Source of the DNA: Bacillota bacterium
Lineage (GTDB): Bacteria > Bacillota > Clostridia > Tissierellales > MES13
Reading direction: 5' to 3'
Assembly: GCA_009711785.1 (NCBI GenBank)
Contig: VENA01000034.1
Span: 1-64,000, forward strand
Length of the DNA: 64,000 nucleotides
Below, one piece after another: positions 9,744-30,477 of this stretch. Below the pieces are notes generated by a model that was not told where the DNA came from, searched no databases, and saw only the letters and a program-made list of their open reading frames with translations. Both the position numbers and the translations under genes were made by a program. Every line of letters begins with the position of its first letter. Position 1 is the first letter of the stretch.

Positions 9744-11477
9744 TTATTCTTCAACGCTTAACTTAGTAAAATCAAACTTTGTAACATCAAATAATCCAAG
9801 ATCTGTAACCTTTAACTCAGGAATAACAGGTAATGCTAAAAATGATAAAGTCATAAATGGATCAAGGTCAGTATTTACATTTAATTTATTATAAGCAATA
9901 TCAAGCATTTCTTCTAACTCTTTATTAACATCCTCCATAGATCTATTAGACATTAATCCTGCAATTGGAAGCGCTAAAGTTTTAAGAACTTTACCTTCAG
10001 AGCAAATAGTAATACCTCCACCTACTTTAGTTACTTCTTCTATTGCTTTTATCATATCTTCATCATTATCACCAACAACGATTAAATTATGGGAATCATG
10101 GGCTATTGTTGAAGCTATTGCTCCATTATTAAGTTTAAAGTTTTCAACCAAACCTAAACCTATATTCCCTGTTGCATTATGTCTTTCTATAACAGCTAAT
10201 TTTAATATATCTAAATTTTTATTTACTTTAAATTCATTAGTATCGTTTGTTTCTACTTTCCTTACAACCTTCTCTGTAACTAAACTGTGGGCTGAAAGCC
10301 TCATTACATTTACTATATCTGAATCAAGCTTTAATTTTAAAGCACCATTTTCTATTTCTTTAATATTTACAGTATCTACAACTTTAGAATGGTCATAGGA
10401 TTTTACTTTAAATAAAGCCTTATTATTTTCTGCAACTAATTTACCCTTTTTAAATACCTTTTTTACTTTAAATTCTCTTAAATCATCTAAAACAACTAAA
10501 TCTGCATCATATCCAGGTGCTATTGCTCCTTTATTTTTTAAATTATAACACTCAGCTGCATTTATTGTTGCCATTTTTATCGCAGATATAGGATCTATTC
10601 CATTTTTTATTGACAATTTAAGATTATTATCTATATGACCATCATTAATAATATCCTCTGGATGTCTATCGTCTGTACAGAATATACATCTTCTTAAATT
10701 TTCTTTATTTACTCCCCTAATTAAATCTTCAAGGTTTCTAGCAGCTGATCCTTCTCTGATAGCTATATACATCCCTAATCTTAATCTGTCAATCATCTCT
10801 TCAACTGTAGAACATTCGTGTTCTGTCCTAACACCTGCAGTAACATAAGAGTTTAACTCTTTATCGTTTATTCCTGGTCCATGTCCATCTATAAGTTTAT
10901 CTCTTTTTTTTGCAATTTCTATTTTACTTAATATTTTTTCATCTGCATTTATAGTGGATGGATAATCCATTAACTCTCCTAAACCTAATATTCTTTCATT
11001 ATCTATCATTTTTTCTAAACTATCTGCTTCTAATACAGCCCCTGAATTTTCAAAATTTGTTGCAGGCACGCAGGATGGCAACATGAAATATACATCAAGT
11101 GGTATTTCTTTACTAGAATCTAGCATAAACTGTATTCCATCTAAACCACATACATTTCCTATTTCATGGGGATCAGCAATAATAGTAGTCGTTCCTCTAG
11201 GTATTATAGTTCTAGCAAATTGTGTAGGAGTTACCATGGAAGATTCTATATGAACATGACTATCAATTAGTCCTGGGGATACAAATTTTCCATTCATATT
11301 TATTTCTTCTTCACCTTCATATTCTCCAATTCCTACTATTTTACCTTTATTTATAGCAATATCACCTTCTATTATTTCATGGGAAAAAACATTTATTATT
11401 TTGCAATTTTTTAAAACTAATTCACTTACCTTTCTACCTGCAGCTAAATCTATCATTCCTTTTATTTTATCCTTCAC
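9744..11477 (-). CDS. ade: Adenine deaminase (canonical paralogue)
   Basis: An amidohydrolase of the bacterial adenine deaminase family (COG1001), converting adenine to hypoxanthine and ammonia. The motifs are complete: DSHVHIESSM, ADPHEIGN, DGHGPG (H199), TEHE and TDDRHPED at 268-275. The frame is open to 11522, but I start it at the GTG at 11477, where GGGAGG is seven bases upstream, giving 577 residues, normal for the family. It directly follows the Mo-M subunit gene. Its product hypoxanthine is a likely substrate of the neighbouring hydroxylase. A second, altered homologue is at 18146-19960. Confidence 0.9.
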   Translation of the reverse strand: MKDKIKGMIDLAAGRKVSELVLKNCKIINVFSHEIIEGDIAINKGKIVGIGEYEGEEEINMNGKFVSPGLIDSHVHIESSMVTPTQFARTIIPRGTTTIIADPHEIGNVCGLDGIQFMLDSSKEIPLDVYFMLPSCVPATNFENSGAVLEADSLEKMIDNERILGLGELMDYPSTINADEKILSKIEIAKKRDKLIDGHGPGINDKELNSYVTAGVRTEHECSTVEEMIDRLRLGMYIAIREGSAARNLEDLIRGVNKENLRRCIFCTDDRHPEDIINDGHIDNNLKLSIKNGIDPISAIKMATINAAECYNLKNKGAIAPGYDADLVVLDDLREFKVKKVFKKGKLVAENNKALFKVKSYDHSKVVDTVNIKEIENGALKLKLDSDIVNVMRLSAHSLVTEKVVRKVETNDTNEFKVNKNLDILKLAVIERHNATGNIGLGLVENFKLNNGAIASTIAHDSHNLIVVGDNDEDMIKAIEEVTKVGGGITICSEGKVLKTLALPIAGLMSNRSMEDVNKELEEMLDIAYNKLNVNTDLDPFMTLSFLALPVIPELKVTDLGLFDVTKFDFTKLSVEE

Positions 11478-11498
11478 AAAATTAACCTCCCTTTTTAT

Positions 11499-11527
11499 AA
11501 TAAGTGAAGGTAGAACCTTCACTTATT
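11499..11527. repeat. 13-bp perfect hairpin between Mo-M subunit gene and ade
   Basis: Arms AATAAGTGAAGGT / ACCTTCACTTATT with a three-base loop overlap the stop codon at 11523. There is no T-run on the minus strand, so rather than a full terminator it may be an mRNA-processing or stability element that sets different levels of hydroxylase and deaminase. Confidence 0.7.
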
Positions 11528-12500
11528 TTTTAGACTTATTTAATTCTTTTAAAACTCGAGAAGGTGTTACCGGTATTTCAGTTATTCTTACCTTTACTGC
11601 ATCATATATAGCATTTAAAATAGCTGGCGTTACTGGAATCATAACCGGTTCACCTACACCTTTAGCTCCATAGGGCGCAGTGTTTTCTGGATCTTCTATT
11701 AAAATATTATCTATATCTATCATGTCAAGAGAAGTTGGTATTAAATAATTAGTAAAGCTATCATTTTTAATTTTTCCATTATCTACATTTATATCTTCTA
11801 ATAAAGCATATCCCAGTGCCATGGAAAATCCTCCATCCATTTGTCCCTCTACTAATGAAGGGTTTATAGCTCTACCTACATCCTGGGTAAATACTGCTTT
11901 TAATACATTTACTTCTCCTGTTAAAGTATCAACACTTACCTTAACTGCACAGGCCCCAAAGGTATATGGCCAATAAGGTGCACCTTGTCCAGTCTCTGGA
12001 TCCATTTCTGTTGTTTGGGCTGTAAAACTTCCCTTTATCTTTAAAGACTTATCTTTAGCTAAATCTTTTAAAGCTATGCTTTTTTCAGGTAATGTTTCTA
12101 CATAAACATATCCATCTTTTAATTTAAGACCAACATCTGTATTTAAATTTAATTTTAATTTTGCTTCTTCTTTTATTTTTTCTCTTAAATCTTCACATGT
12201 TTTTTTAACAGCATTACCTGTATTATAGGTTTGTCTACTGGCTGCTGCTGTTCCTGAATCGGGCATGTTACTTGTATCCTCTGATATAAGTATAATATCA
12301 TTAACCTTTAATCCTAATACTTCACAAGCAATTTGTGTCATGGCTGTTTTTGCACCTTGACCAACTTCTGTAGCTCCAGTATGAACAGCTACCTTTCCAT
12401 CAGCCCTTAATACAGCCTCTGCTTTGGATACATCCGGAAAACCATTTCCATATCCTGTTCCATAAAACATTGTTCCTAAACCTATTCCTTCTTTTATCAT
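11523..12500 (-). CDS. Molybdenum hydroxylase, Mo subunit C-terminal half (NdhM-like)
   Basis: A 325-residue protein that corresponds to the C-terminal half of a xanthine dehydrogenase large subunit. It carries the cofactor-binding EVGQGAKTAM (residues 45-54) and GVGEP (281-285), whose E284 matches the catalytic glutamate of xanthine oxidase. Its ATG overlaps the stop of the preceding gene (ATGA). Xanthine dehydrogenases usually have this region fused to the upstream half; a separate 325-330-residue subunit is known in nicotinate dehydrogenase of Eubacterium barkeri. Purine genes on both sides favour a purine (hypoxanthine/xanthine) hydroxylase, but nicotinate-type substrates cannot be ruled out. 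Confidence 0.87.
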   Translation of the reverse strand: MIKEGIGLGTMFYGTGYGNGFPDVSKAEAVLRADGKVAVHTGATEVGQGAKTAMTQIACEVLGLKVNDIILISEDTSNMPDSGTAAASRQTYNTGNAVKKTCEDLREKIKEEAKLKLNLNTDVGLKLKDGYVYVETLPEKSIALKDLAKDKSLKIKGSFTAQTTEMDPETGQGAPYWPYTFGACAVKVSVDTLTGEVNVLKAVFTQDVGRAINPSLVEGQMDGGFSMALGYALLEDINVDNGKIKNDSFTNYLIPTSLDMIDIDNILIEDPENTAPYGAKGVGEPVMIPVTPAILNAIYDAVKVRITEIPVTPSRVLKELNKSKK

Positions 12501-15194: not shown

Positions 15195-16532
15195 TTACTT
15201 CTTAATACCTGCTAATTTACATTGTTTACTTACAATTCTATTTGAATCCTTTAATATAGATCTTTCATTTAATGTAACAAGATTTTTATTAAGCATTACT
15301 ATTTTACCGTCAATTATTGTAGTATCAACATCTGTAGATTTTGCAGAGTATACAAGTTGCGATATTATATTCATATCTTTACATGGACTATTATGCAGTT
15401 TATTTAAATCAACTACGGCCATATCTGCTATTTTTCCTTCCTCTATACTTCCTAATTTATCTTCCATACACATAGCCTTAGCTCCACCTAAAGTAGCTAA
15501 TTCAAATACCTTTTCTGCAGGCATAGTAGTAGGGTTATGAAGTCTTGCCTTTTGTATTAAAGCAGCACTTCTCATTTCTTCAAACATATCTAAATTATTA
15601 TTACAAGGTGCTCCATCAGCCCCTATTGAAACATTAGCATTAAGTTCTAATAATTCTGGTACTTTTGCAATACCTGAAGCTAGTTTAAGATTAGAATTAG
15701 GACAATGGGACACTTTCGTTCCTGTATCAGCTAATATTTTCATTTCTTCATCATCTAACCATATACAATGGGCTAATATAAGTTTTTCTCCAGTTAGTCC
15801 TAACTTATCTAGAAATACTATATTCCTCATACCTCTATCCTGTTGAACTATTTGGATTTCACCTTGATTTTCTGAAGCATGGGTATGAACCATAACATCA
15901 TATTCCCTAGATAAATCCCTAACTCTTTTTAATAAATCATCCGAACAGGATATTACAAATCTAGGGGCAAAAGCATATTGAATTCTACCATTTCCCTTTC
16001 CATGCCATTTTTTTAGTAATTTAACACTTTCTTTTATAGAATCGTCTGTATTTTCCATTAAAGTTTCAGGTACATCATCACCATAATCCATCATACATTT
16101 TCCTGTTATTGCTCTAAAACCACTTTCGTATATAGCTTCAATGGCAGCATCTGTATGATGTACTGTTTCCATATCTATTATTGAAGTTGTTCCTCCCTTT
16201 ATCATTTCTGCAATCCCTAATTTAGCAGAAATATAATTACTTTCAGCCTGATGAGACCCTTCTAATGGCCAAACCTTCTTTTTAAGCCAATCTAAAAGCT
16301 CTAAATCATCAGCTTGTCCTCTATATAAGGCTTGAGTTAGATGTATATGGGTTTGAATTAATCCAGGTATAATTACCTTTTCACTGGCATCAATAATCTG
16401 GTCAGCCTCAACTTCTATATCTTTAGATACCTTTTTTATTTTGTTACCTTCAACTAATACATCTCCCTTAAAAATCTCTCGTTCCTTATTCATGGTTACT
16501 ATAGTACCATTTTTTATCAATAGTTTGTTCAT
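15195..16532 (-). CDS. Amidohydrolase, guanine / 5'-deoxyadenosine deaminase type
   Basis: A 445-residue member of the ATZ/TRZ-SsnA branch of the amidohydrolase superfamily. It has the metal motif QTHIHLTQALYRGQADDLELLDW (start near residue 60), HTHASENQGEI, LAHCIWLDD and SIGADGAPCNNNLD, all needed for catalysis. Relatives deaminate guanine, 8-oxoguanine, adenosine or 5'-deoxyadenosine. Between a purine permease and the Mo hydroxylase, guanine (or another aminopurine) is the most economical substrate, which would give xanthine. The sequence alone does not separate these possibilities. Confidence 0.75.
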   Translation of the reverse strand: MNKLLIKNGTIVTMNKEREIFKGDVLVEGNKIKKVSKDIEVEADQIIDASEKVIIPGLIQTHIHLTQALYRGQADDLELLDWLKKKVWPLEGSHQAESNYISAKLGIAEMIKGGTTSIIDMETVHHTDAAIEAIYESGFRAITGKCMMDYGDDVPETLMENTDDSIKESVKLLKKWHGKGNGRIQYAFAPRFVISCSDDLLKRVRDLSREYDVMVHTHASENQGEIQIVQQDRGMRNIVFLDKLGLTGEKLILAHCIWLDDEEMKILADTGTKVSHCPNSNLKLASGIAKVPELLELNANVSIGADGAPCNNNLDMFEEMRSAALIQKARLHNPTTMPAEKVFELATLGGAKAMCMEDKLGSIEEGKIADMAVVDLNKLHNSPCKDMNIISQLVYSAKSTDVDTTIIDGKIVMLNKNLVTLNERSILKDSNRIVSKQCKLAGIKK

Positions 16533-16612: not shown

Positions 16613-16651
16613 ATTTAATTTGCCCCCCCTTAAAGGGGGCAAAATTAAATT
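16613..16651 (-). terminator. GC-rich hairpin after the purine permease
   Basis: A GCCCCC / GGGGGC core extended by TTTAATTT / AAATTAAA begins right at the permease stop. There is no long T-run after it on the minus strand, but the stem is strong for such AT-rich DNA. Confidence 0.6.
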
Positions 16652-17979
16652 TATGCATATACAAGCTTTAATATAAATAAGAAAGCTAAGAAATACATAA
16701 GAGGTGAAACTTCTTTTCCTCTTCCTGTAAATAGCTTAAGTAAAGCATATGATAAAATACCAAATACTAAACCTTCTGCTATTGAATAAGTTAAAGGCAT
16801 CATTATAATAGTTAAAAATGCCGGTATTGCTTCTGTATAGTCTTCTAAATCAATCTTTAATATTGGTGACATCATAAATAGTCCAACTAATATTAAAGCT
16901 GGTGCTGTAGCAGCTGATGGAACAATAGTAAATAATGGTGCAAAGAATAATGCAAGTAAGAATAAAATACCTGTTATTAAGGATGTTAATCCTGTTCTTC
17001 CACCTTCAGCAACTCCTGATGCACTTTCAACATAAGTTGTTACTGTACATGTACCTAAACAAGCACCTGCTGTTGTACCTATAGCATCTGCAAATAAAGC
17101 TTGTTTAGCATTTGGAAGATTACCCTTTTCATCAAGTAAATCAGTCTTAGATGCAACGCCTATTAATGTACCTATAGTATCGAACATATCAACAAATAGG
17201 AATGTAAATAAAACAATTACCATATCTAAACTAAATATCTGGTCAAATCCTACAAATTGAAATGCAATAGGTTTTAAAGATGGAGGTGCATCAAATATAC
17301 CATTAGGCATTGGAGTAACACCCATAGGAATTCCTATTACAGTTGTTATAACAATACCTATAAGTAAAGCACCTTTTACTTTTTTAGCAAGTAAAATACC
17401 TGTTATTACTAAACCTATAACAGCTAATAATGTAGCTGGATTAGTTACATCTCCTAATGAAACTAAAGTAGCATCATTATTAATAACTATCTTAGCATTT
17501 ACAAGTCCTAAAAATGCTATAAATAAACCTATACCAACACTAACTGCATGTTTAATATTTAAAGGTATACAATTAAGAATTGCTTCTCTTATTTCAAATA
17601 ACGTAAGTATTATAAAGATAATACCTTCAAGTAATACTGCTGTTAATGCAAACTGCCATGAATATCCCATACCTAAAACTACTGTATATGCAAAGAATGC
17701 ATTTAGACCCATACCTGGAGCTAAAGCAAATGGATAGTTTGCATATAAAGCCATTATAATAATTCCTATAAATGCAGCTACTGCTGAAGCTGTAAATACT
17801 GCACCTTTATCCATTCCAGCGTCACTAAGTATTAATGGGTTAACAACTAAGATATAAGCCATTGTCATAAAAGTCGTTATACCTGCAACTATTTCTGTTT
17901 TTACATTGGTACCGTTTTCCTTAAGTCTGAATTTTCTTTCTAGAAAACCATTATATGTTCCAATTTCACTACTCATCAA
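16651..17979 (-). CDS. NCS2-family purine permease (PbuG/AzgA type)
   Basis: A 442-residue polytopic membrane protein, with about 12-14 segments, of the AzgA-like branch of the NCS2 family (COG2252). Visible signatures are EIVAGITTFMTMAYILVVNP, the substrate-site ALAPGMGLNAFFAYTVV and DMFDTIGTLIGVA near residues 265-277. These import hypoxanthine, guanine or adenine by proton symport. Placement between the microcompartment operon and the hydroxylase genes supports purine uptake. No purine riboswitch core is visible in the leader (17980-18145), which carries a small AAAGATTTT inverted repeat before the ribosome binding site. Confidence 0.9.
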   Translation of the reverse strand: MMSSEIGTYNGFLERKFRLKENGTNVKTEIVAGITTFMTMAYILVVNPLILSDAGMDKGAVFTASAVAAFIGIIIMALYANYPFALAPGMGLNAFFAYTVVLGMGYSWQFALTAVLLEGIIFIILTLFEIREAILNCIPLNIKHAVSVGIGLFIAFLGLVNAKIVINNDATLVSLGDVTNPATLLAVIGLVITGILLAKKVKGALLIGIVITTVIGIPMGVTPMPNGIFDAPPSLKPIAFQFVGFDQIFSLDMVIVLFTFLFVDMFDTIGTLIGVASKTDLLDEKGNLPNAKQALFADAIGTTAGACLGTCTVTTYVESASGVAEGGRTGLTSLITGILFLLALFFAPLFTIVPSAATAPALILVGLFMMSPILKIDLEDYTEAIPAFLTIIMMPLTYSIAEGLVFGILSYALLKLFTGRGKEVSPLMYFLAFLFILKLVYA

Positions 17980-18145: not shown

Positions 18146-19960
18146 TTACTCCTTAACAGGTGGAAGAATCTTAAAGTTATTTACATCTATAAGTCCTTTG
18201 TCAGTTATTTTCCACTTAGGACTTGTTGATAGTGCTAAGAAAGATAGATGCATAAACGGAGCATGTACTGTTCCATTTAATTTTTCTGTTACTACTCTTT
18301 CTAAATCTGATACTTTCTTACTAACCTCAGAACCCGTTATTTCATCTGTTATTAATCCTCCAACGGGAAGTCTCATTTCTTCTATTACTCTACCATTTTC
18401 ACAAACGGCTAAACCGCCACCCATCTCTATAACTTTATTAACTGCTTCCTTCATATCTCTAAGGTTTGTTCCTACTACCATTATGTTATGGGTATCGTGG
18501 GCAACACTTTCAGCAAAGGCTCCTTTCTTTAAACCAAATCCTTTAACAAAAGCCTTTCCTATGCCACCTCCGCGGCCATATCTTTCAACACATGCTATCT
18601 GAAGTACATCCTTTTTAGTATCAGGTCTAACAATTCCTTGATTTACTTTTAAATTAAATTCTAAACTTCCAGATAAGTTTTGATCTGGTATTAATTCTAT
18701 ACACCTTACTAATGCTTCATTTCCTGATGCTTCTATCGAAAGATCCTCTTCACTAATTGGATCTCTTTTTACTGAATTTTTAACTTCCTCTGGGTAAGTA
18801 TAACTAGGAAGGTCTATTGTTAAATCTCCCTGGGATGCTACTAACTTACCTTCTAAAAATACTGCTTCAACATCCATATTTTTAAGATCATCTATGATAG
18901 CTATATCTGCTAATTTACCTGCAGCTAATACTCCTCTATCATCAAATCCAAAGTAAGTAGCTGGATTAATCGTTACCATTTGTATAGCCTCAACAGGATC
19001 TACACCTTCATTAATAGTTCTTTTTACTATTTCATTCATATGACCTAAGTTTTCTAAATCCTCAGCTACCATATCATCAGTAGCTAAAATACACCTTCTT
19101 GAATCTAGGTTTTCTTCAGTTACTGCCTTAATACATTCAGCCATATTTCTTTGGGTTGAGCCTTCTCTCATAAACACATATACACCTTGTCTTAACTTTT
19201 CAATACACTCATCTTTACTTGTTGTTTCATGACAAGAACATCTACCACCAGTAGAAACTATATGTGCAGCAAGTTCATTTCCAAATAACTCAGGTGCATT
19301 ACCATCAACTACCTTTCCTACACTTTTTGCATAGGAAGTTGATGCTACTAAATCTGTTACTACCTCCGGTGTATTTCTATATACATGTTTTGCATTACTA
19401 AACCCTTGTAATTCTCCTATACCTATAACATTGTCGTAATTAAGAAGATCTTCCATGTCCTTAGAAGTAACATCGTATCCTGCTGTTTCTAACCCAGGAC
19501 AATCTGGAGTTAATGCAGGAACTACTAAGCTTACATGATTAGGTACTAAACTTGCTTCATCTGCCATTGCCTTCATACCTACTGGCCCTAAAGCATTACC
19601 TATTTCATGAGGGTCTGCAATTAAAGTTGTTGTTCCTGATGGTATACTTAGCCTTGAAAATTCAGTAATTGTTAACATACTGCTTTCAAAGTGCATATGA
19701 GAATCCATAAATCCTGGAGATATGTATTTGCCTTCAACATCTACTACTAAAGTGTCATCTCCTATTAAATTTTCAGAATCTCCAACTAAGGCTATATATT
19801 TTCCTTTTATTGCTATATCTGCAGTATATACTTCCCTTGTTAATACATTTATTACATTACCACCATATAATACTACATCAGCATAGTCTTTATCTGACAT
19901 TAAAACATCTATTAACTCTCTATATTCCATTGCTTGTTTTATATTTAAAGCATCTGACAA
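18146..19960 (-). CDS. Divergent adenine deaminase homologue; candidate 4-aminoimidazole deaminase
   Basis: A 604-residue COG1001 amidohydrolase at the end of the microcompartment operon. It keeps DSHMHFESSM (residues 86-95), ADPHEIGN and the HE pair near 244-245. Two active-site motifs differ from the canonical paralogue at 9744-11477: DGHGPG is DGNAPE here (Asn221 for His) and TDDRHPED is TDDMVAED (294-301). It is therefore probably not a plain adenine deaminase. The fermentation of xanthine needs a 4-aminoimidazole deaminase, and no other gene in this operon fits that step. It starts at a TTG (19960) seven bases after GGAGG. Substrate assignment is inference. Confidence 0.72.
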   Translation of the reverse strand: MSDALNIKQAMEYRELIDVLMSDKDYADVVLYGGNVINVLTREVYTADIAIKGKYIALVGDSENLIGDDTLVVDVEGKYISPGFMDSHMHFESSMLTITEFSRLSIPSGTTTLIADPHEIGNALGPVGMKAMADEASLVPNHVSLVVPALTPDCPGLETAGYDVTSKDMEDLLNYDNVIGIGELQGFSNAKHVYRNTPEVVTDLVASTSYAKSVGKVVDGNAPELFGNELAAHIVSTGGRCSCHETTSKDECIEKLRQGVYVFMREGSTQRNMAECIKAVTEENLDSRRCILATDDMVAEDLENLGHMNEIVKRTINEGVDPVEAIQMVTINPATYFGFDDRGVLAAGKLADIAIIDDLKNMDVEAVFLEGKLVASQGDLTIDLPSYTYPEEVKNSVKRDPISEEDLSIEASGNEALVRCIELIPDQNLSGSLEFNLKVNQGIVRPDTKKDVLQIACVERYGRGGGIGKAFVKGFGLKKGAFAESVAHDTHNIMVVGTNLRDMKEAVNKVIEMGGGLAVCENGRVIEEMRLPVGGLITDEITGSEVSKKVSDLERVVTEKLNGTVHAPFMHLSFLALSTSPKWKITDKGLIDVNNFKILPPVKE

Positions 19961-19988: not shown

Positions 19989-20270
19989 TTATTCTAATAA
20001 ATCATTATAAACATCAACATTATCAACAATAGCAACTATTGATGCATCAATAGGTGCATCTAATCTATTAGCCCCTATTCTAGCTGCAGTTCCCTTTGTA
20101 TAAACAACAATCTCTCCTATTCCAGCACCAACAGTATCTACAGCAATAATTGTATCTCCTATTGGTTTTTTAAAAGAATCTAGAGGTTGTGTAATCATTA
20201 GTTTACATCCTGTTAAGTTTTCATCCTTTCTAGTAGCAACAACTGTACCAACTACCTTTCCTATATGCAT
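19989..20270 (-). CDS. BMC-P vertex protein (EutN/CcmL family)
   Basis: A 93-residue single-domain protein of the EutN/CcmL family, whose pentamers cap the vertices of microcompartment shells. It begins MHIGKVVGTVVATRKDENLTGCKLMI and has the conserved VDTVGAGIGEIVVYTKGTAAR loop, followed by a strand with IDASIVAIVD. Only one such gene is in the window. It lies 28 bases downstream of nothing but the flavoprotein gene, within the BMC operon. Confidence 0.92.
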   Translation of the reverse strand: MHIGKVVGTVVATRKDENLTGCKLMITQPLDSFKKPIGDTIIAVDTVGAGIGEIVVYTKGTAARIGANRLDAPIDASIVAIVDNVDVYNDLLE

Positions 20271-20289: not shown

Positions 20290-21090
20290 TCACTTTTTCA
20301 CAATTGAAATGTTTAGCTCTTTAGCTTTATCTTTAGCTAAAGGTGTTATAATTGTTTTTTTAGATATAATTAATTTATCTGATTTAATCTCTTTTATATC
20401 ACTTTCTGTAATCACTTTTTTACTTATTTTTTTATTAGTTTTCTCATCATCAATTATTTCTTCATTTTCTTTAACTAAATCAGATTCGTTAAATATATCA
20501 AGAACTTCTAATACATAGTTCTTTTTATTAACTTCTTTTATTCCCATGTTTTTAAGCTTTAAAGTATAATCATCTACCATTTGCTTTAATACTGGGTTTA
20601 CAGGTTCATCGCCTCTATTATTATTAACATTTGACATGTCCATAAGCACTTTTTTACCTTGCCATAAAAAGCGCCAAAGTAATGTTGAAATAAAATCATC
20701 CTGCAAGCCTAAAGCTAACTTAAAAGCAGTATTCTGAGTAGTCATAGGAATTATAACACCGTTAACTTTATCAATAATCTCCATATAGGAATACTTATTT
20801 TCCTCTGTATATATATTACTAGGTCTTAATCTCTGTTTTATTTTATTTAAATCTAATATTTTTTCAGCACTTTTTGAAAAGGCAATATCTATTTTAAATC
20901 CATATCTTTTTAACTTAACAAGTTCTTTTATAGAGTCCTTTAAACCTATATTAGTTCCTGTAAATACTACTAATATTGACTTATCTTTGAATTTATTTTT
21001 ACTTTCACTAGTATCTTTTTTTAAATCAAATCCATCTAATCTAGAAGAAAGCTGATTTATTATGTCCTTAGAAAAACTGTATTTATCCAT
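20290..21090 (-). CDS. Microcompartment-associated flavoprotein (HFCD-like)
   Basis: A 266-residue protein. Residues about 37-190 resemble the flavoprotein domain of the HFCD/UbiX family, with VVFTGTNIGL at the start, PMTTQNTAFKLALGLQD and VLMDMSN. A charged linker (about 200-225, rich in Glu and Lys) leads to a small C-terminal domain ending TPLAKDKAKELNISIVKK, a tail shared with several microcompartment proteins. Similar flavoproteins occur in other BMC loci without a known function. Here it might hold or repair flavin for the UbiD enzyme, or be a redox or shell-linked protein; none of this is shown by the sequence. Confidence 0.65.
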   Translation of the reverse strand: MDKYSFSKDIINQLSSRLDGFDLKKDTSESKNKFKDKSILVVFTGTNIGLKDSIKELVKLKRYGFKIDIAFSKSAEKILDLNKIKQRLRPSNIYTEENKYSYMEIIDKVNGVIIPMTTQNTAFKLALGLQDDFISTLLWRFLWQGKKVLMDMSNVNNNRGDEPVNPVLKQMVDDYTLKLKNMGIKEVNKKNYVLEVLDIFNESDLVKENEEIIDDEKTNKKISKKVITESDIKEIKSDKLIISKKTIITPLAKDKAKELNISIVKK

Positions 21091-21140: not shown

Positions 21141-21419
21141 TTATAACTCCTTACTTAACATAACTCTTTCAACTTCTGAATGTGGTCTTGGGATTACGTG
21201 TACAGAATGTAATTCCCCTACTGATCTTGCTGCTTCTGCACCTGCATCTGTTGCAGCTTTAACAGCTCCAACATCTCCTCTAACCATTACAGTTACTAGT
21301 CCAAAACCTATTTTTTCATAGCCTACAAATTGAACATTTGCAGCCTTAACCATAGCATCTGAAGCTTCAACAGCACCTACTAATCCTTTAGTTTCCACCA
21401 TACCTAAAGCTTGACTCAT
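21141..21419 (-). CDS. BMC-H shell hexamer protein 1
   Basis: A 92-residue single BMC domain, forming hexagonal tiles of the shell. It starts [27 protein letters not shown] and has [27 protein letters not shown], with the Arg/Pro-rich VIPRPH motif near the C-terminus. The segment equivalent to the pore loop reads near YEKIGFG. It is close in sequence to the other two BMC-H genes downstream in the operon order, which are probable duplicates. Confidence 0.95.
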
Positions 21420-21440: not shown

Positions 21441-21842
21441 TTATTTACTACTTTCTTTTGAAGTTGTCTTCTTAGTTGTAGATTTACTTTGAGACTTTTT
21501 ACTTTGCGTTTTTTTGTTTTGCTTTGTTTTTGTTTCTTTTTCTTTTTTGTTATTCTTTTTGAATTCTTCAATTAAACGGTCAACTTCCTCATGAGGTCTT
21601 GGAATAACATGTGAAGATATTACATTTCCTACTTTATTACCAGCTAACTCTCCTGCATCTATAGCAGCCTTAACAGCTGCAACTTCTCCTGCTACTTGTA
21701 TAGTAACACTTACTGATTTCCCAGCTCCTATTACTTTTTCATATCCTATTAAAGTTACATCGGCAGCTTTGCTTGCAGCATCTAAAGCCGATACAGCAGT
21801 CGTTAAACCTACTGCTTCTATTAATCCTAACGCTTTTCCCAC
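21441..21842 (-). CDS. BMC-H shell protein 2 with a Lys-rich tail
   Basis: A 133-residue protein. Residues 1-94 are one BMC domain (MGKALGLIEAVGLTTAVSALDAASKAA ... HVIPRPHEEVDRL). Residues 95-133 form a tail of Lys, Ser, Thr and Gln with no hydrophobic core, probably disordered and strongly positive. Tails of BMC-H proteins can point to the outside or inside of the shell. The next gene upstream codes for another Lys-rich disordered protein, so the two may share a partner such as nucleic acid, folate polyglutamate or acidic enzymes. Confidence 0.92.
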   Translation of the reverse strand: MGKALGLIEAVGLTTAVSALDAASKAADVTLIGYEKVIGAGKSVSVTIQVAGEVAAVKAAIDAGELAGNKVGNVISSHVIPRPHEEVDRLIEEFKKNNKKEKETKTKQNKKTQSKKSQSKSTTKKTTSKESSK

Positions 21843-21858
21843 AACTACACCTCCTTAG

Positions 21859-22293
21859 TTATTTGTTAAAGGTGTTTTTCTTTCCTATTGAATTAAGTGA
21901 CACTTTAGGAATATATCCTTTAGGGTTATTTATTTTAGTTGATTTAACATATTGTTTTTTGTTTTTATTTTTATTTTCTTTTTCTTTTTTATTTCCTGAT
22001 AAATCATCTAAAGTAACCATTTTTTTATTATCATCTTTTTCTTTCTTTTCTTTTTTAACTTCTTTATTTTTCTTCCCTATAAGCTCATCTAAGCTTATTT
22101 TATTTCTTTGTTTATTATTTTTATTTTCAACTTTAGTACCCTTTGTATAAACTTCTTTTAAAAGGTCTTCTTCATGTTTGCTAATATTAGATTTAGAAAG
22201 TTTATACTCTTTTTTATTATTAGAACCATTAGTTTTTGGTCCTGTTTTATTTACAATATTATTCATTATGGTTCTTGATAATGGATTAGCCAC
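21859..22293 (-). CDS. Lys-rich disordered protein of the microcompartment operon
   Basis: I do not recognise this protein of about 144 residues. It is very rich in Lys, Asn and Glu and is probably disordered. The N-terminus (ANPLSRTIMNNIVNK) could form an amphipathic helix like the targeting peptides of microcompartment cargo. Three short repeats stand out: ISLDELIGKK, VTLDDLSGNK and VSLNSIGKK, at about residues 66-75, 93-102 and 131-139, separated by charged linkers. Repeated short motifs in a disordered chain are typical of scaffolds such as CsoS2. I take the GTG at 22293, with AGGTGAT upstream, as the start. It lies between two BMC-H genes. Confidence 0.7.
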   Translation of the reverse strand: MANPLSRTIMNNIVNKTGPKTNGSNNKKEYKLSKSNISKHEEDLLKEVYTKGTKVENKNNKQRNKISLDELIGKKNKEVKKEKKEKDDNKKMVTLDDLSGNKKEKENKNKNKKQYVKSTKINNPKGYIPKVSLNSIGKKNTFNK

Positions 22294-22313
22294 TATAATC
22301 ACCTACCATTTAA

Positions 22314-22580
22314 CTAATCTAACATTTTATCTACTTCATCATGTGGTCTTGCAATAACATTAGTTGAAATAATCTCAGCTATTTGTCCTGCTGTATCAGA
22401 GCCATTGTCAACAGCTGCTTTTACAGCCGCAACTTCTCCGGTTACAACTACTGATATAACTCCTGAGCCAACATACTCAACATCCACTATATTAACATCA
22501 GCTGATTTAACCATGGTGTCTGCCGCTTGAATAGCAGCTACCAAACTTCTTACATCAACCATTCCAATGGCTTGTCTCAT
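22314..22580 (-). CDS. BMC-H shell hexamer protein 3
   Basis: About 88 residues, one BMC domain: MRQAIGMVDVRSLVAAIQAADTMVKSA, then GVISVVVTGEVAAVKAAVDNGSDTA and VIARPHDEVDKML. I start it at the ATG at 22580, which gives the usual N-terminus, although a GTG at 22595 is also possible with the AAAGGTGG site. It directly follows the UbiD gene in the transcript and begins the shell-gene block. Arg in the PRPH motif of the other two is kept as ARPH. Confidence 0.93.
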   Translation of the reverse strand: MRQAIGMVDVRSLVAAIQAADTMVKSADVNIVDVEYVGSGVISVVVTGEVAAVKAAVDNGSDTAGQIAEIISTNVIARPHDEVDKMLD

Positions 22581-22607
22581 ATAATCTGACACCACCTTTT
22601 ACTTTTT

Positions 22608-23948
22608 TTAGAAATACTTACTTATATCTATATTTTCGTATCCTGGAATCTTAGCCTTATCAAATCTCTCTTTACTTTCTCCTAAAGGTTTAGTAGCATC
22701 TATACCTACCTTATCTGATATACTTTCTAAATTGTGAGAAGGATCTAATCCTGTACCTAGACCTCCTTCGATTGTTACTATATCTTTAGAAGCTTGAACC
22801 CTTGTTGCTAGTATTCCTTCTACTTCTCTTCCATTAAAGATATCAACATCTTCATCTACTATTACAACATGCTTTAAATCTTTACTGCTACTTAAAGCTC
22901 CTATTATTGCGCTTTTTGCATCCCCTTTTGATAATTTATTTATTGATACAACACCATGGAATCTACATCCTCCACCAATCGTTACATTTACATCTTTAAC
23001 ATCGACCATTTTGTTTGTTTCAGTAAATAGTTCAACTTCTCTAATTAATCCATTAGATAAGTGTTCCTCTCTACATGGAAAAGATACTTGAAATATTGGG
23101 TCATTTCTATGCATAACTCCACTGACTTTAATTATAGGGTGTTCAGCTACTCCACCATAATATCCCATCAACTCTCCAAAGGGACCTTCAATTTCACTTT
23201 GATTAGCCGGGATAGTACCTTCTAAAACAATTTCTGCATGGGCAGGTACTTCTAAGTCAATAGTCTCACATTTAACAAGTTCTAAGGGTTCTCCCCTTAA
23301 AGCTGAATCTATTTCATATTTATCTACTCCATAAAGACTACTACTTACCTGGGATGCTAAAAGAAAAGTATAATCATAACCTAATATAACTGCTACTTCT
23401 AGCTCCTTATTTTTCTTTTGAAGCTCTTTAATTTGATTTGTTAATTTTGGTGATGCTATTAATATACTTAGATTATCTTTACCATTTACTTGTAATCTTC
23501 TTACAGCAGTGTATCTTTTATTAGTTTCTGGATCTCTAATAATAACAATTCCTGCTGTTATAAAACTTGATGAATCCTTTTCATGAAATGTTGGTATAGG
23601 AAACATTTTAGATACATCAATGTTTCTTTTTACTATGTTTTCTTTAATAGGTCCATCGTTTAGTAATTTAGTTGGTTTAGGATTTGCTATTGCATCCATG
23701 AACTTATAAATTCTTTCTTCATGATTAGTTTGAAGCATATCATAAAAAATTTCTCTATCTCCAAACATTCCTCCTATGGCTTTAGTATTATAGCCTTTAA
23801 CATTATCAAATAGGATAGGAGTTTCATTATTATAATATTTAAGTACTGCACCCATTTCGTATTTAGGGTCTACTTCTACTTTGCATTCTTTTAATTTATT
23901 AGTTTCATTAAGTCTTTGTAAGGATGCTCTAAGCATTTGCCTTTCCAT
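22608..23948 (-). CDS. UbiD-family prenylated-FMN decarboxylase
   Basis: A 446-residue member of the UbiD family, which decarboxylates unsaturated or aromatic acids with prenylated FMN. The catalytic elements are present: the Arg of AVRRLQ (about 149-153) and the pair E254/E259 in EIEGPFGE. In this operon the likely substrate is 4-amino-5-imidazolecarboxylate, whose loss of CO2 gives 4-aminoimidazole, a step known biochemically in purinolytic clostridia. The UbiX partner lies just upstream. The family call is firm; the substrate is inferred from context. Confidence 0.9.
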   Translation of the reverse strand: MERQMLRASLQRLNETNKLKECKVEVDPKYEMGAVLKYYNNETPILFDNVKGYNTKAIGGMFGDREIFYDMLQTNHEERIYKFMDAIANPKPTKLLNDGPIKENIVKRNIDVSKMFPIPTFHEKDSSSFITAGIVIIRDPETNKRYTAVRRLQVNGKDNLSILIASPKLTNQIKELQKKNKELEVAVILGYDYTFLLASQVSSSLYGVDKYEIDSALRGEPLELVKCETIDLEVPAHAEIVLEGTIPANQSEIEGPFGELMGYYGGVAEHPIIKVSGVMHRNDPIFQVSFPCREEHLSNGLIREVELFTETNKMVDVKDVNVTIGGGCRFHGVVSINKLSKGDAKSAIIGALSSSKDLKHVVIVDEDVDIFNGREVEGILATRVQASKDIVTIEGGLGTGLDPSHNLESISDKVGIDATKPLGESKERFDKAKIPGYENIDISKYF

Positions 23949-23963
23949 CTAAGACCTCCCTTC

Positions 23964-24530
23964 TTATAAGTTCTCTCCCCATCTTTTAGATATGTTATGT
24001 TCAATGTTAAACTGATCTAATATTCGACCTACTATTGAACTTACAATATCACTTATGGTTTCAGGGTGATTATAAAACCCAGGTGTTGGAGGCATTATAG
24101 TAGCACCCATTTTTGAAAGTTTTAGCATATTTTCTAGATGTATACTACTTAAAGGAGTTTCCCTTGGCACAATAACAAGTTTTCTTTTTTCTTTAATGGT
24201 TACATCCGCTGCTCTTGAAAGCAAGTTATCTGAATACCCCATACTAACTGCAGAAACTGTTTTCATAGAACTTGGAACTATAACCATTCCATCAACCTTA
24301 AAAGATCCACTTGAAATATTAGCTGCTAGGTCTTTATTATCATAGTAATATGTAGCTAATTCTTTAAGTTCAGATATATCAATACCACATTCATGTTCAA
24401 CTACATATTCTCCCATACTAGATACCACTAAGTGGGTTTCTATATCTAGTTCTTGTAACACCTTAAGTAAAGCAACTCCATATATTGCTCCACTTCCTCC
24501 TGAAATTCCTACTACTAGCTTCATATTCAT
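23964..24530 (-). CDS. ubiX: UbiX-family flavin prenyltransferase
   Basis: A 188-residue flavoprotein of the UbiX/PadI family, which makes prenylated FMN from FMN and dimethylallyl phosphate for UbiD enzymes. The sequence shows VVGISGGSGAIYGVALL at the N-terminus, VPSSMKTVSAVSMGYSDNLLSRAADVTIKEKRKLVIVPRETPLS in the middle (in two conserved blocks) and MPPTPGFYNHP. The coupling to the UbiD gene (15-base gap) shows that the two work together. Confidence 0.93.
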   Translation of the reverse strand: MNMKLVVGISGGSGAIYGVALLKVLQELDIETHLVVSSMGEYVVEHECGIDISELKELATYYYDNKDLAANISSGSFKVDGMVIVPSSMKTVSAVSMGYSDNLLSRAADVTIKEKRKLVIVPRETPLSSIHLENMLKLSKMGATIMPPTPGFYNHPETISDIVSSIVGRILDQFNIEHNISKRWGENL

Positions 24531-24648: not shown

Positions 24649-25251
24649 TTACTCTACTTTATTTTCTGTGTCTCCTCCACCAATCCATGGGTCTTCTCCG
24701 TTTTCCCATGCATTAATATATTCATCTATTGTCATTACTTTACTAAATAGACTTAAGTCTTTTAATCCATACTCATGCATTTCTTGAGTCTTTGACTGTG
24801 TTCCATCACTTAAAGTAATAACTTTGTATGCATTGTAAAGTGCATCTGAAGCTGTAGATCTAACACATACGTTAGTCCATACACCTGTAACAACTACTGT
24901 GTCTATATTTTCTTCTCTTAAGAAAAGATCTAAGTCAGTATGAGCAAATCCACTGTGTCTTCTCTTTTGAACAATATACTCATCTTCATTAGGGTATAAC
25001 TCTTCTATAAAGTCTGACCCCCAAGTTCCTTTAACAGCATGTACTGGTCTTACTCTAAAGTCAGCATCATTTTTTCTGTGAGCCTCTTGGATGTGTACTA
25101 TTTGTACATCATCATCTTCTCTATTTCTAACCCATTCCATTAACTTTTGAAGATTAGGAACTATTTCATCAGCTCCAGGACATCTTAATTTAGCATTTTC
25201 TCCAACAAAATCATTTAACATATCTATAACAACAATTGCATGTCTAGCCAT
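24649..25251 (-). CDS. Isochorismatase-family cysteine hydrolase; candidate ureidoimidazole amidase
   Basis: A 200-residue cysteine hydrolase. The catalytic triad is visible as D10 (VVIDMLNDF), K96 (VQKRRHSGF) and C129 (TGVWTNVCVRSTA). Family members split amides, carbamoyl or ureido groups, for example N-carbamoylsarcosine and ureidoacrylate. In the xanthine pathway 4-ureido-5-imidazolecarboxylate must lose its carbamoyl group to give 4-amino-5-imidazolecarboxylate, CO2 and ammonia; this gene sits exactly between the ring-opening amidohydrolase and the decarboxylase. The acidic C-terminal tail (DPWIGGGDTENKVE) is unusual. Substrate is inference. Confidence 0.82.
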   Translation of the reverse strand: MARHAIVVIDMLNDFVGENAKLRCPGADEIVPNLQKLMEWVRNREDDDVQIVHIQEAHRKNDADFRVRPVHAVKGTWGSDFIEELYPNEDEYIVQKRRHSGFAHTDLDLFLREENIDTVVVTGVWTNVCVRSTASDALYNAYKVITLSDGTQSKTQEMHEYGLKDLSLFSKVMTIDEYINAWENGEDPWIGGGDTENKVE

Positions 25252-25276: not shown

Positions 25277-26689
25277 TTAGTATTTTAATTTTTTCTCTAG
25301 CTTTTGTATACTTTGTCTCTTAATGAACTGTCCGTATCCTTCTTGACCAACAATTCCTTCATTATCATCATATACAACTTTACCGCGGATAACTGTCTTA
25401 ACTGGCTTTCCTTTTAACTTATATCCATGGAATGGAGTATATTTAGCCATTGTATACATCTTATCTTTATCTATAGTCCATTCTTTATCAAGATCTAATA
25501 TTGTAAAGTCTGCATCAGAACCTATAAACATAGCACCTTTTTTAGGATATAATCCATAATGCTTAGCAGGACTTTCACTTAATACTTCAACTAATCTTGA
25601 TAATGAAAGTCTTCCTTTATTGTATCCTTCACTTACTATTACAGGTACCATTGTTTCAACTCCTGGGATTCCAGGGAATGAATTCCATATATTCATGCCT
25701 TCTGCATCTTTTTCAGTTTCTATGTTATATGGAGCATGGTCTGTAGCTACAAAGTCAACACTTCCATCTTGAAGTCCTTCCCAAAGTTCTTCATTATCTT
25801 TCTCAGTTCTAAGTGGTGGTGCAATTTTAGCAAACTGCATATGCTCAGTCATTGCGTCTTGATAGTTTAATGTTAAGTAATGAGGGCATACCTCACTAGT
25901 TACATCTAAGCCTCTTTCCTTTGCTTCTCTTACTAATTTAGAACCTATTCCAGTACTCATATGAACTATATGAAGTCTAGCTCCTGTATCTTCTGCAAAA
26001 CTTATTCCTAATTGGATAGCTACCTTTTCTATAAGAGTATTTCTAGCCTCAGCCCAAGCTGGACCATCCATACGTCCTTCTTTTTCAAATTTATCAGTAT
26101 AGAATTCAGCCATAGCAAAGTTTTCTGCATGGATTCCAACAGGTAATCCAGTTTCAGCTACTGCCTTGAAACATTCATACATTTCAGGGTCTGTAACTCT
26201 TGGATAAGTTGGAACTGATGGAGTCATATATACTTTAAATGCTAGCACACCGTAATCTGCTTGTTCTTGAACGTTGTGTAGATTTCCTTCTCTAACATCT
26301 TCTCCTGTTACTCCACCCCACATACCATAATCAACTATAGCCTTATCTTTTATGGCTTCTAATTTGTGTTCTAATTCTTCAACACTTCTTACTGAAGGCT
26401 TTGAACAACAAGGCATATCTACTATTGTTGTTACACCTCCACTTGCTGCTGCACTAGAACCTGTAAGGAAATTTTCTCTATGGGTAAATCCAGGATCATT
26501 AATGTGTGTATGAGAGTCTATACACCCTGGTAATGTTAATTTACCTTCAGCATCAATAGTTTCCTTTGCATCAATTCCTTCTAAATCTTGGGTAAAACCA
26601 GCTATTAATTCATCCTTAACTAAGATATTAGTAACAACTGTGTCGTCACCCTGTGGTATTCTTGCATTCTTTACAATTACATCATACAT
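25277..26689 (-). CDS. Dihydropyrimidinase/allantoinase-like hydrolase; candidate xanthine amidohydrolase
   Basis: A 470-residue cyclic amidohydrolase. The binuclear metal site is complete: DSHTHINDPG (H60, H62), the lysine to be carboxylated K152 in AFKVYM, HAENF near 182, VHMS near 238-241 and ATDHAPYN. Relatives hydrolyse hydantoins, dihydropyrimidines and allantoin. In purine fermentation the first ring opening, xanthine to 4-ureido-5-imidazolecarboxylate, is the same kind of cyclic-amide hydrolysis and has lacked an obvious gene. The operon context favours this over allantoinase, since no uricase or other allantoin-pathway gene is present. Substrate is inference. Confidence 0.8.
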   Translation of the reverse strand: MYDVIVKNARIPQGDDTVVTNILVKDELIAGFTQDLEGIDAKETIDAEGKLTLPGCIDSHTHINDPGFTHRENFLTGSSAAASGGVTTIVDMPCCSKPSVRSVEELEHKLEAIKDKAIVDYGMWGGVTGEDVREGNLHNVQEQADYGVLAFKVYMTPSVPTYPRVTDPEMYECFKAVAETGLPVGIHAENFAMAEFYTDKFEKEGRMDGPAWAEARNTLIEKVAIQLGISFAEDTGARLHIVHMSTGIGSKLVREAKERGLDVTSEVCPHYLTLNYQDAMTEHMQFAKIAPPLRTEKDNEELWEGLQDGSVDFVATDHAPYNIETEKDAEGMNIWNSFPGIPGVETMVPVIVSEGYNKGRLSLSRLVEVLSESPAKHYGLYPKKGAMFIGSDADFTILDLDKEWTIDKDKMYTMAKYTPFHGYKLKGKPVKTVIRGKVVYDDNEGIVGQEGYGQFIKRQSIQKLEKKLKY

Positions 26690-26815: not shown

Positions 26816-28489
26816 TTAAAATAGTCCAGTTATCTCTCCATCTTTAGTAACATCCATATTATTTGCTGCAGGAACCTTTGGAAGTCCTGGCATTGTCATT
26901 ATGTCACCTGTTAATGCAACTAAGAATTTAGCTCCAGCTGATACATTAACTCCTCTTACTGTAACTCTAAATCCTTCTGGTCTTCCTTTTAATGAAGGAT
27001 CATCGGATAATGAAGATTGTGTTTTTGCCATACATATTGGCATTTTGTCTAATTCTAAGTCTTTTAATTGTTTAATTTGCTTTTTACATTTACCTGTAAA
27101 GTCTACTCCATCTGCACCGTAAACCTCTTTTGCTATTATTTCTATCTTTTCTTCTATACTCATATCAACATCGTATAGTGGCTTAAAGTTTGAAGGCTTG
27201 TTCTCTACTGTTTCTACTACTTTTTTAGCTAAGTCTATTCCACCTTCTCCTCCTTTAGCCCATACTTTTGATAATACAACCTCTGCTTTTATTTCTTTAC
27301 ATTTATTAAATAATAAATTAACTTCTTCTTCAGTGTCAGATGGGAATTCATTTATTGCTACTACAGCTGGTACTCCAAATTTATTAACATTTTCTATATG
27401 TTTTTTAAGATTTTCAAATCCTTTATCTAAAGCTTCTAAGTTTTCTTCATTTAATTTATCTTTAGCTACTCCACCATGGCTTTTAAGTGCCCTTACAGTG
27501 GCAACTATCACTGCAGCATCAGGATTTAAATCTGCAAATCTACTCTTTATATTAAAGAATTTCTCTGCTCCTAAATCTGCACCAAATCCTGCCTCTGTTA
27601 CACAATAATCAGCTAATTTAAGTGCCATCTTTGTTGCCATAACACTGTTACATCCATGGGCAATATTAGCAAAAGGTCCTCCATGGATAAACGCTGGAGT
27701 ATTTTCAAGTGTTTGTACTAAATTAGGTTTGATTGCATCCTTTAATATTAAAGTAAGTGCTCCTGTTGCATCTAAATCATCTGCCTTAACAGGTTCACCA
27801 TCAAATGTATATGCAACAATCATATTACCTAATCTTTCTTTTAAATCTTCTAAACTTGTTGCTAAACAAAGAATTGCCATTATCTCTGAAGCAACTGTTA
27901 TATCAAATCCATCTTCTCTAGGGATGCTATTTCCTTTACCCCCTAGACCTACTACAACATTTCTTAAAGCTCTATCATTCATATCAAGTACTCTATTCCA
28001 AACAACTCTTCTTTGGTCTATATTTAAATCATTTCCTTGATGCATATGATTATCAATAAGTGCAGCTAAAAGATTATGGGCTGTAGTTATAGCATGGATA
28101 TCTCCTGTAAAGTGTAAGTTTATATCATCCATAGGTACAACTTGAGAATATCCTCCTCCAGCAGCTCCTCCTTTAATTCCAAAACAAGGACCTAATGAAG
28201 GCTCTCTTAATGTGGTCATAGTCTTTTTACCTATTTGATTAAGACCCATACTAAGACCTATGTTTGTAGTTGTCTTTCCTTCACCTGCCGGTGTCGGGTT
28301 AATAGCTGTTACTAAAATTAACTTTCCATCTTCTTCATCTTTTAATCTATCAAATACCTCTAATGAAACCTTAGCTTTATGATTACCAAAAAGCTCTAGT
28401 TCATCATTATTTATCCCTACCTTCTCTGCAATGCTTTTAATATGTTCCATGTTAGCTTCCTGTGCTATCTGAACGTCTGTTTTCATCAT
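26816..28489 (-). CDS. fhs: Formate-tetrahydrofolate ligase
   Basis: A 557-residue formyl-THF synthetase, complete in length. The P-loop [11 protein letters not shown] is at about residues 64-74, followed by the conserved [22 protein letters not shown] region, in two blocks, and [13 protein letters not shown]. In purine fermentation the enzyme runs in the ATP-forming direction: 10-formyl-THF + ADP + Pi to formate + ATP, the main substrate-level phosphorylation. It lies between the formiminotransferase and the amidohydrolase. The formate product feeds fdhA at 45-47.7 kb. Confidence 0.96.
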
Positions 28490-28514: not shown

Positions 28515-29426
28515 TTACATATCCATTAAGTGTGTTTCTAGAATTTGTTCCTTTCTAAAGCCTTCTAATTTTAAGTAATACTCTAATGAATTAATTATAT
28601 GTGGTAATTTAACAGGACCTACAAGCTCAGAACCTGTTACCGTAACACCATATCTTTCTGCTTCTTGTTCTACAAACTTAAATGCTCTATATATAGGAGT
28701 GTTATTACAATCAAATAAATTCATTGATACAACTACTCCATCCCTTTCTGGGAATTTAATACCAACTGATCTAATAGTTGAGAATCCACCACTTGGTCCT
28801 CTTAAAGCTCTAGCTATTTTCTTAGCTATACTTAAATCCTCTGTATTTAAGAATATATTATAAGCAGTTAATCCTTCTTCCTTTGCACTTACTATGGTAG
28901 CTCCTGCTGTTTCATGTAATTTATTAGGTCCTATATCTGGTTTTCTTTCATCTGTATGGGCTACTTCTTTTAAACCTTCATATTGACCTTTTCTTATGAA
29001 GCTTAATTTCTTTCTTTCTTCACACCTAGCATTTTCTCCTGAAAAGTAAACAGGTACATTATATCTTTCATATACTTCTTTACCTATTTCTTCTGCTAAT
29101 TCTTTAACTTCATCCACTGTGATGTTTTTAAATGGGAACATTGGTATAGTATCCTGTGCACCTATTCTAGGATGCGTACCCTTATGTTCTTCCATGTTGA
29201 TTAGTTCATAGGATTTCCCTGCCATATTAAGTAGTGCTTCCTTTAGTGGTTCAGGCTCACCTATAACTGTTAATACTGTTCTGTTAAAATCTTCTTCAGG
29301 TTCACAGCTAACTAACTTAACTCCTTCAACATCTCTTAATTGGTCAGCTACCTTTTCAATAACTTCCTTGTTCTTACCGTCACTGAAATTTGGTACTGCT
29401 AAAACATATTGCTTATTATCTGACAT
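28515..29426 (-). CDS. Formimidoyltransferase, probably glycine-specific
   Basis: A 303-residue stand-alone transferase domain homologous to the N-terminal half of FtcD. It holds the catalytic His (H85) in [28 protein letters not shown], and [15 protein letters not shown]. It moves the formimino group from an amino acid to tetrahydrofolate. In purine fermenters the donor is formiminoglycine, which yields glycine; no histidine-degradation (hut) gene lies nearby, so the glycine enzyme is more likely than the glutamate one. It is the first gene of the microcompartment operon. The cyclodeaminase partner is at 41860-42498. Confidence 0.87.
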
Positions 29427-29784: not shown

Positions 29785-30477
29785 ATGGCTTTACGTTTAA
29801 TTGATTTATCACAGGAAATATTTCAAGGTATGTCAGTCTTTCCTATGCATCAGAAAACTTTTATAATGACAAATATGACACATGAAGAAAATATGGAAGC
29901 TACAGGAAGTGATACCTTAGGCTTTTCTGCTAGAAACTTATTAATAAGTGAGCACGGTGGCACACATTCCGATGGTGTTTGGGAATATAAAAAGAGTGGT
30001 GAAACAATAGATAAAATGCCTATGGAATATTTCTGGGGGAGTGCTATATGTATAGACTTATCCCACGTACCTAGTAATAGATACATTGAAATTAAGGATT
30101 TAGAAAAAGCAGTTAAAAAATCCGGTCAAGAAATAAAAAAGGGAGATATCGTTCTTTTATATACCGGACACTATGATAGGAACTTTGGAACGGATAAATG
30201 GCAAACTACCTATAGTGGTTTGAATTATAAGTCTGCTAAATGGTTAGCTGAAAAAGGTGTTGTAAATATCGGTGTTGATGCTCCAGCTATTGACCATCCC
30301 GACGATTTAGATTTTTCAGGACATTTAGTTTGTGGAGAATATGATATTACTAATACTGAAAACTTATGTAATTTAGATAAGGTTGTTAATAAAAGGTTTT
30401 TATATATCGGTCTTCCACTAAAAATAAGAGATGGTTCAGGTTCCCCTATAAGGGCAGTTGCATTATTAGAAGAATAA
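29785..30477 (+). CDS. Cyclase-family metal hydrolase; candidate 4-imidazolonase
   Basis: A 230-residue protein of the cyclase / kynurenine formamidase-like family. The metal ligands of the HxGTHxDxPxH motif are present as H57, H61 and D63 in HGGTHSDG, but the final PxH is replaced by GVW. The family includes isatin hydrolase, which opens a five-membered lactam. The xanthine pathway needs opening of 4-imidazolone to formiminoglycine, a comparable reaction, and no HutI-like imidazolonase is in the window. It is transcribed divergently from the BMC operon and ends at a shared terminator with the PucR gene. The GGAGG site is eight bases before the ATG. Role is inference. Confidence 0.75.
   Translation: MALRLIDLSQEIFQGMSVFPMHQKTFIMTNMTHEENMEATGSDTLGFSARNLLISEHGGTHSDGVWEYKKSGETIDKMPMEYFWGSAICIDLSHVPSNRYIEIKDLEKAVKKSGQEIKKGDIVLLYTGHYDRNFGTDKWQTTYSGLNYKSAKWLAEKGVVNIGVDAPAIDHPDDLDFSGHLVCGEYDITNTENLCNLDKVVNKRFLYIGLPLKIRDGSGSPIRAVALLEE

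Follow-up and report, generated by a model that had tools for sequence, protein, structure and literature searches.

An adenine-deaminase-like protein with asparagine at the beta5 metal-ligand position is a probable 4-aminoimidazole deaminase of xanthine microcompartment loci

The pathway of xanthine fermentation is already known; Ravcheev et al. 2019 proposed it for the Xau (BUF1) gene cluster, in which the fifth step (deamination) was given to Amet_4572, named XauE, xanthine ring opening to Amet_4587 (cyclase) and imidazolone opening to Amet_4584 (hydantoinase); an Ade-like gene, which by gene order would be Amet_4574, goes unmentioned in the main text (PMC6620236). Gottschalkia acidurici (Clostridium acidurici 9a), which grows on xanthine but not on adenine, was reported to have three adenine deaminase genes but to lack candidates for the genes that turn 4-ureido-5-imidazolecarboxylate into formiminoglycine (PMC3519856), while G. 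purinilytica is reported to use adenine (PMC4582583). In the related deaminase YerA, the metal ligands are His87, His89, Glu179, His210, His231 and Asp283, with Glu179 bridging; the placement of the two metals comes from AlphaFold 3 and is said to match the crystal structure of Atu4426 roughly (PMC12133300).

The window, i.e., the whole stretch of 64,000 nucleotides analysed here, is gene for gene a xanthine-utilization (Xau or xanthinase pathway) bacterial microcompartment (BMC) locus. Features by which such a locus is identified were all present, namely BMC-domain and EutN shell genes, UbiD, UbiX, hydantoinase, isochorismatase and formiminotransferase. The gene order was PF04199 cyclase, FtcD, formate-tetrahydrofolate ligase, hydantoinase-like, isochorismatase-family, UbiX, UbiD, BMC shell, EutN and AdeN, followed by permease, SsnA-like, xanthine dehydrogenase and canonical adenine deaminase genes (Table 1). 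AdeN, our working label for the beta5-Asn type of protein, had been described as ending the BMC operon; it is the last gene of a tight block of shell and enzyme genes, although genes on the same strand continue after a gap of 166 bases. The genome used for comparison is presumably that of Alkaliphilus metalliredigens, to judge from its gene order. A lysine-rich ORF of 147 aa between shell genes (21859-22302) was matched by neither Pfam nor NCBIfam, and its relatives, which occupy the same position, are only weakly similar (31% identity in A. metalliredigens). The molybdenum subunit of xanthine dehydrogenase is encoded by two overlapping ORFs (11523-13771), which is probably not a frameshift error since the same split is found in A. 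metalliredigens. A search for purine, xanthine or folate riboswitches gave no match to any Rfam family in the window, and in six related loci only an rRNA was matched.

Table 1. Positions of AdeN and of associated genes in the window
Feature	Position	Strand	Remark
Canonical adenine deaminase paralogue, His at beta5	9744..11522	-	592 aa
SsnA-like / 5'-deoxyadenosine-deaminase-like aminohydrolase; counterpart of Amet_4572	15195..16532	-	
Permease, next gene downstream of AdeN	16651..17979	-	NCBIfam: no match
AdeN, adenine-deaminase-like amidohydrolase, beta5 Asn221; proposed 4-aminoimidazole deaminase	18146..19960	-	
Asn221 codon, in place of beta5 His metal ligand	19298..19300	-	Computed from residue number (19960-220*3)
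EutN/CcmL shell pentamer protein	19989..20270	-	
PduM-like / flavoprotein-domain BMC protein	20290..21090	-	
BMC-domain shell protein	21141..21419	-	
BMC-domain shell protein	21441..21842	-	
BMC-domain shell protein	22314..22595	-	
UbiD-family decarboxylase; proposed 4-amino-5-imidazolecarboxylate to 4-aminoimidazole, step before AdeN	22608..23948	-	
UbiX flavin prenyltransferase, cofactor supply for UbiD	23964..24530	-	
Isochorismatase-family hydrolase, closest to biuret hydrolase/RutB; proposed to hydrolyse the ureido group	24649..25251	-	
Hydantoinase/allantoinase-like amidohydrolase; proposed xanthine amidohydrolase (xanthinase)	25277..26689	-	
Formate-tetrahydrofolate ligase	26816..28489	-	Sequence and conserved position
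Formiminotransferase (FtcD); proposed formiminoglycine to glycine	28515..29426	-	
PF04199 cyclase-family hydrolase; proposed 4-imidazolone ring opening, step after AdeN	29785..30477	+	

The earlier note had placed the AdeN gene correctly and had given no strand; the ORF runs along the minus strand from 19960 to 18146, encodes 604 aa and starts with a TTG codon, ahead of which lies a strong ribosome-binding site (AGGAGG, aaaggaggtcaaaca). Both the amidohydrolase domain and Adenine_deam_C were found in AdeN by Pfam, and its score of 485.3 bits against TIGR01178 (adenine deaminase) was just above the curated cut-off of 472.5 bits, compared with 656.8 bits for the canonical paralogue. An ORF for this paralogue does lie where it had been reported (9744-11477) but extends to 11522, on the minus strand, and a search of the whole genome indicated that it and AdeN are the only full-length family members. 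The predicted structure of AdeN (AF2, pLDDT 91.8, pTM 0.91) was closest in the PDB to the adenine deaminase of A. tumefaciens (3nqb/3t81, TM 0.85-0.89, with 3nqb as best match at TM 0.86), the comparison with 3NQB being by TM-scores only. AdeN was 35% identical to the window paralogue, 32% identical to the 3NQB sequence and 30% identical to E. coli AdeD. An N-terminal helix seen in AdeN is also present in the canonical enzyme.

When the six metal ligands of YerA were aligned onto the window proteins, the corresponding residues were H89, H91, E183, H214, H235 and D284 in the canonical paralogue, with spacings from E to beta5 and from beta5 to beta6 equal to those of YerA, and H88, H90, E183, N221, H244 and D295 in AdeN. 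By this alignment, Asn221 of AdeN occupies the beta5 metal-ligand position. Thus, the binuclear centre of six ligands (HxH, E, beta5 H, beta6 H, beta8 D) is incomplete in AdeN, where five of the six are found and beta5 is Asn221. The earlier note had reported the underlying change, from DGHGPG in the paralogue to DGNAPE in AdeN, and this is real; its statement that the metal motifs are kept holds for HMH and DPHE but not for the site as a whole. A second reported difference, TDDRHPED in the paralogue as opposed to TDDMVAED in AdeN, is likewise real but not diagnostic, and was dropped as functional evidence because residues flanking TDD vary among true (His-type) adenine deaminases (TDDRNPWE in E. 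coli, TDDVFPDD in Atu4426).

Fixation of this change was evident from homologues collected from 58 loci of a species-level genome collection, 391 genomes of the class and 249 genomes of the order, to which E. coli AdeD and the 3NQB sequence were added. Scores in the class search (391 genomes) fell into two ranges, 889-1177 bits for Asn-type proteins and at most 530 bits for all others. After dereplication at 82% identity for column statistics, position 221 was Asn in 27 of 27 clade members and His in 93 of 93 others, the single Cys belonging to a divergent type; among all 222 rows there were 110 Asn, 109 His and 3 Cys. The alignment with characterised adenine deaminases that had been proposed as a check bore out the difference, since E. 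coli AdeD and the crystallised Atu4426, both included in the 93, have His at beta5. Column 221 was the only one of 604 with a complete (100%/100%) split between groups, other near-fixed differences of the Asn clade being D153, Q185, H233, T246 and H571. In a quick LG+G4 tree, which contains long branches, the beta5-Asn clade had SH-aLRT support of 100 and was explained by a single change of state. Identity among Asn-type proteins ranged from 55 to 98%, and H88, H90, E183, H244 and D295 were invariant in Asn-type and His-type groups alike. Because these other ligands are invariant and the fold is kept, AdeN appears to be an enzyme rather than a product of decay.

Two further types of family member were noted. 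One, a divergent paralogue of adenine deaminase found in L104, L105 and L188, carries Cys at beta5 and GLDE in place of DPHE; its gene forms a tandem with a His-type gene in L104 and L105 and stands alone in G. acidurici. The other, in L081-L085, is a small clade of His-type proteins that have GHS and RCCHES motifs and belong neither with canonical adenine deaminase nor with AdeN.

Shell genes were visible at 52 of 58 related AdeN loci. Of the six shell-less loci, four begin no more than about 230 bases from the end of a contig. The remaining two, from Moorella (L056 and L061), have full flanks, in which AdeN is accompanied by cyclase, formiminotransferase, cyclodeaminase and a UbiD-family protein but by no microcompartment genes. 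The Moorella loci therefore indicate that AdeN goes with the imidazole chemistry and not with the shell. They also bear on the reading of AdeN as an inactive protein with a structural or scaffold role in the BMC, which the loss of one metal ligand and the location of the gene at the end of the shell block might suggest; with five ligands invariant, 55-98% identity maintained across the Asn clade and AdeN present where there is no shell gene, this reading is extremely improbable. Also noted in both Moorella loci were a creatininase-family protein and an ABC/CbiQ-type transporter.

The genes that accompany AdeN were compared in a set of 21 genomes that was built on the presence of AdeN, so that the comparison is one of partner genes. 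UbiD was found in 19 of 21 AdeN genomes and a close PF04199 cyclase (at least 52% identity) in 17 of the 18 AdeN genomes searched for it, the one genome without cyclase and the two without UbiD all being fragmentary MAGs, whereas a close hydantoinase (at least 63% identity) was found in only 10 of 18. A close SsnA-like orthologue (at least 59% identity) was present in 8 of 21. Outside BMC loci, cyclase adjoins AdeN at L056, L061, L193, L195 and L198. This co-occurrence and adjacency are most simply read as UbiD, AdeN and cyclase carrying out consecutive steps, i.e., decarboxylation, deamination and ring opening.

L193, L195 and L198 contain a second subgroup of Asn-type proteins (57-58% identical), encoded near 8-11 kb beside cyclase and without BMC genes, and with ribonucleoside hydrolase/ribokinase as neighbours in L193 and ABC permeases in L195. 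This subgroup together with cyclase is possibly a separate aminoimidazole module. Some stand-alone Asn-type copies are located away from UbiD, among transport, nucleoside hydrolase or cell-wall genes. Copies that lie beside cyclase and nucleoside hydrolase plus ribokinase, with UbiD not adjacent, would suit a reading in which AdeN acts at the preceding step or takes a related aminoimidazole as substrate (4-amino-5-imidazolecarboxylate or, for stand-alone copies, one derived from a nucleoside), the order of deamination and decarboxylation being different. This is very unlikely, as UbiD is a universal partner in BMC loci and the order of intermediates established classically, reportedly by Rabinowitz and Pricer, opposes it.

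The preferred function of AdeN, acting on 4-aminoimidazole itself, had been put forward in the earlier note as a candidate for an unassigned step of xanthine fermentation. That step was in fact assigned in 2019, apparently to another gene. The Xau locus of A. metalliredigens is collinear with the window; its genes correspond one-to-one to tags 4587 to 4568, and every named anchor falls where it should, the tags being assigned by consecutive numbering rather than from an annotation table. By this gene order, AdeN corresponds to Amet_4574 (80% identity) and Amet_4572 to the SsnA-like gene (L201, 6029-7366); the idea that AdeN is the XauE of Ravcheev et al. was dropped on the same count of genes. 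The 2019 prediction for step 5 (PMC6620236) and this match by gene order would favour the SsnA-like amidohydrolase as 4-aminoimidazole deaminase, leaving AdeN another step such as imidazolone opening. That assignment is unlikely: close SsnA-like orthologues are confined to the 8 of 21 Asn-type genomes noted above, G. acidurici, an organism in which the pathway is known, has an SsnA-like match of at most 40% that is elsewhere in the genome, and the relatives of the SsnA-like protein are of 5'-deoxyadenosine/guanine deaminase types, which fits entry of other purines. Judged from these sequence comparisons, the 2019 model likely ties deamination to the wrong gene, Amet_4572 being absent from most relatives. 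The nearly constant co-occurrence of cyclase with AdeN, which is not seen for hydantoinase, also suggests that steps 2 and 6 of that model (cyclase and hydantoinase) should be swapped.

The three "adenine deaminases" of G. acidurici are two of Asn-type, one of them inside the xanthine BMC locus, and one of Cys-type, from which DPHE has been lost as well. The beta5 His is thus missing from all three. This gene set fits a role in aminoimidazole rather than adenine metabolism. In genome G422, probably G. purinilytica, there are two Asn-type genes, no His-type gene and no PF00962 deaminase. If G422 is G. purinilytica, then either another enzyme deaminates adenine or the Asn-type enzyme might do so. 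An adenine user with only Asn-type genes, together with the TIGR01178 score of AdeN, is what could be expected if AdeN were a working adenine deaminase with a metal site tolerant of Asn, but this is quite unlikely in view of the strict swap of a metal ligand across the whole Asn clade, the frequent location of a canonical adenine deaminase gene next to AdeN and the two Asn-type copies of G. acidurici, which does not use adenine. A canonical beta5-His gene was found nearby in 28 of 58 AdeN loci, so that a second adenine deaminase would often be redundant.

4-Aminoimidazole deaminase is EC 3.5.4.8. AdeN probably catalyses this "aminoimidazolase" reaction in the pathway from xanthine to formiminoglycine that is linked to the xanthine BMC. 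The function is the best supported computationally, and is favoured because pathway context, co-occurrence, the redundancy of the nearby canonical enzyme and the gene content of G. acidurici agree. The function named in the earlier note is thus likely on these grounds, although the note's claim of novelty was too strong. In the proposed pathway, the hydantoinase-like protein would open xanthine, the isochorismatase-family protein would remove the ureido group, and AdeN would act between the UbiD decarboxylase and the ring-opening hydrolase, with FtcD handling formiminoglycine. AdeN retains the fold of adenine deaminase and all but one of the six metal ligands (H88, H90, E183, H244, D295), so that a metal-bound hydroxide would attack the carbon bearing the amino group in the small imidazole ring, and ammonia would depart to give 4-imidazolone. 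With Asn221 in place of the beta5 His, one of the metal sites should be weak, unoccupied or Asn-ligated, and the pocket altered as a result. Sequence, clade, ligand substitution and gene context of AdeN are observed, while its substrate, number of metals, chemistry and location inside the shell are inferred. For the step that would follow, isatin, a five-membered lactam, offers a parallel. Isatin hydrolase, a relative of the PF04199 family, is a cyclic amidohydrolase (PMC6117287), and opening of a small lactam ring is therefore within the capability of that family.

A broader and more tentative proposal, which we regard as possible, is that the clade represents a metal-site subtype of the amidohydrolase superfamily that has Asn for beta5 His but retains the bridging beta4 Glu, and that uses either a single metal or a second metal bound by Asn to deaminate a five-membered aminoimidazole; it would then provide the gene for aminoimidazolase, an activity long known, and revise the published assignment of steps in the xanthine BMC. 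Three points may be new: that beta5 His is universally replaced by Asn, that this replacement can serve as a diagnostic in annotation, and that the 2019 assignments of genes to steps are corrected. A gene cluster for the clostridial conversion of xanthine to glycine (xanthinase pathway) is reported to have been identified by Tong et al. 2023 (PMID 37164019, as cited in PMC12507026), and AdeN may already have been assayed in that study. Asn-type genes exceed the NCBI cut-off for adenine deaminase and have been annotated as such, for example in G. acidurici, an organism unable to use adenine. Whether the single residue at beta5 is Asn or His would allow annotators to tell the two types apart. 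This would also give a candidate gene to a reaction that was measured as early as the 1950s, and would amend the order of steps in the xanthine microcompartment model. Anaerobic purine breakdown is of practical interest for the clearance of purines and urate in the gut.

Among known systems, AdeN shares with the AdeC/AdeD family (TIGR01178; E. coli AdeD, Atu4426, 3NQB/3T81/3T8L) the two-domain fold including Adenine_deam_C, the HMH and DPHE motifs, E183, H244 and D295, at 30-35% identity, and differs from it in having Asn rather than His at beta5 and in further near-fixed differences at positions 153, 185, 233, 246 and 571. With YerA/Bh0637, an N6-methyladenine/adenosine deaminase, it has the superfamily and the C-terminal domain in common, and YerA provides a precedent for an Ade homologue with an altered substrate (PMC12133300). 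In contrast with AdeN, however, YerA has all six ligands, His210 included.
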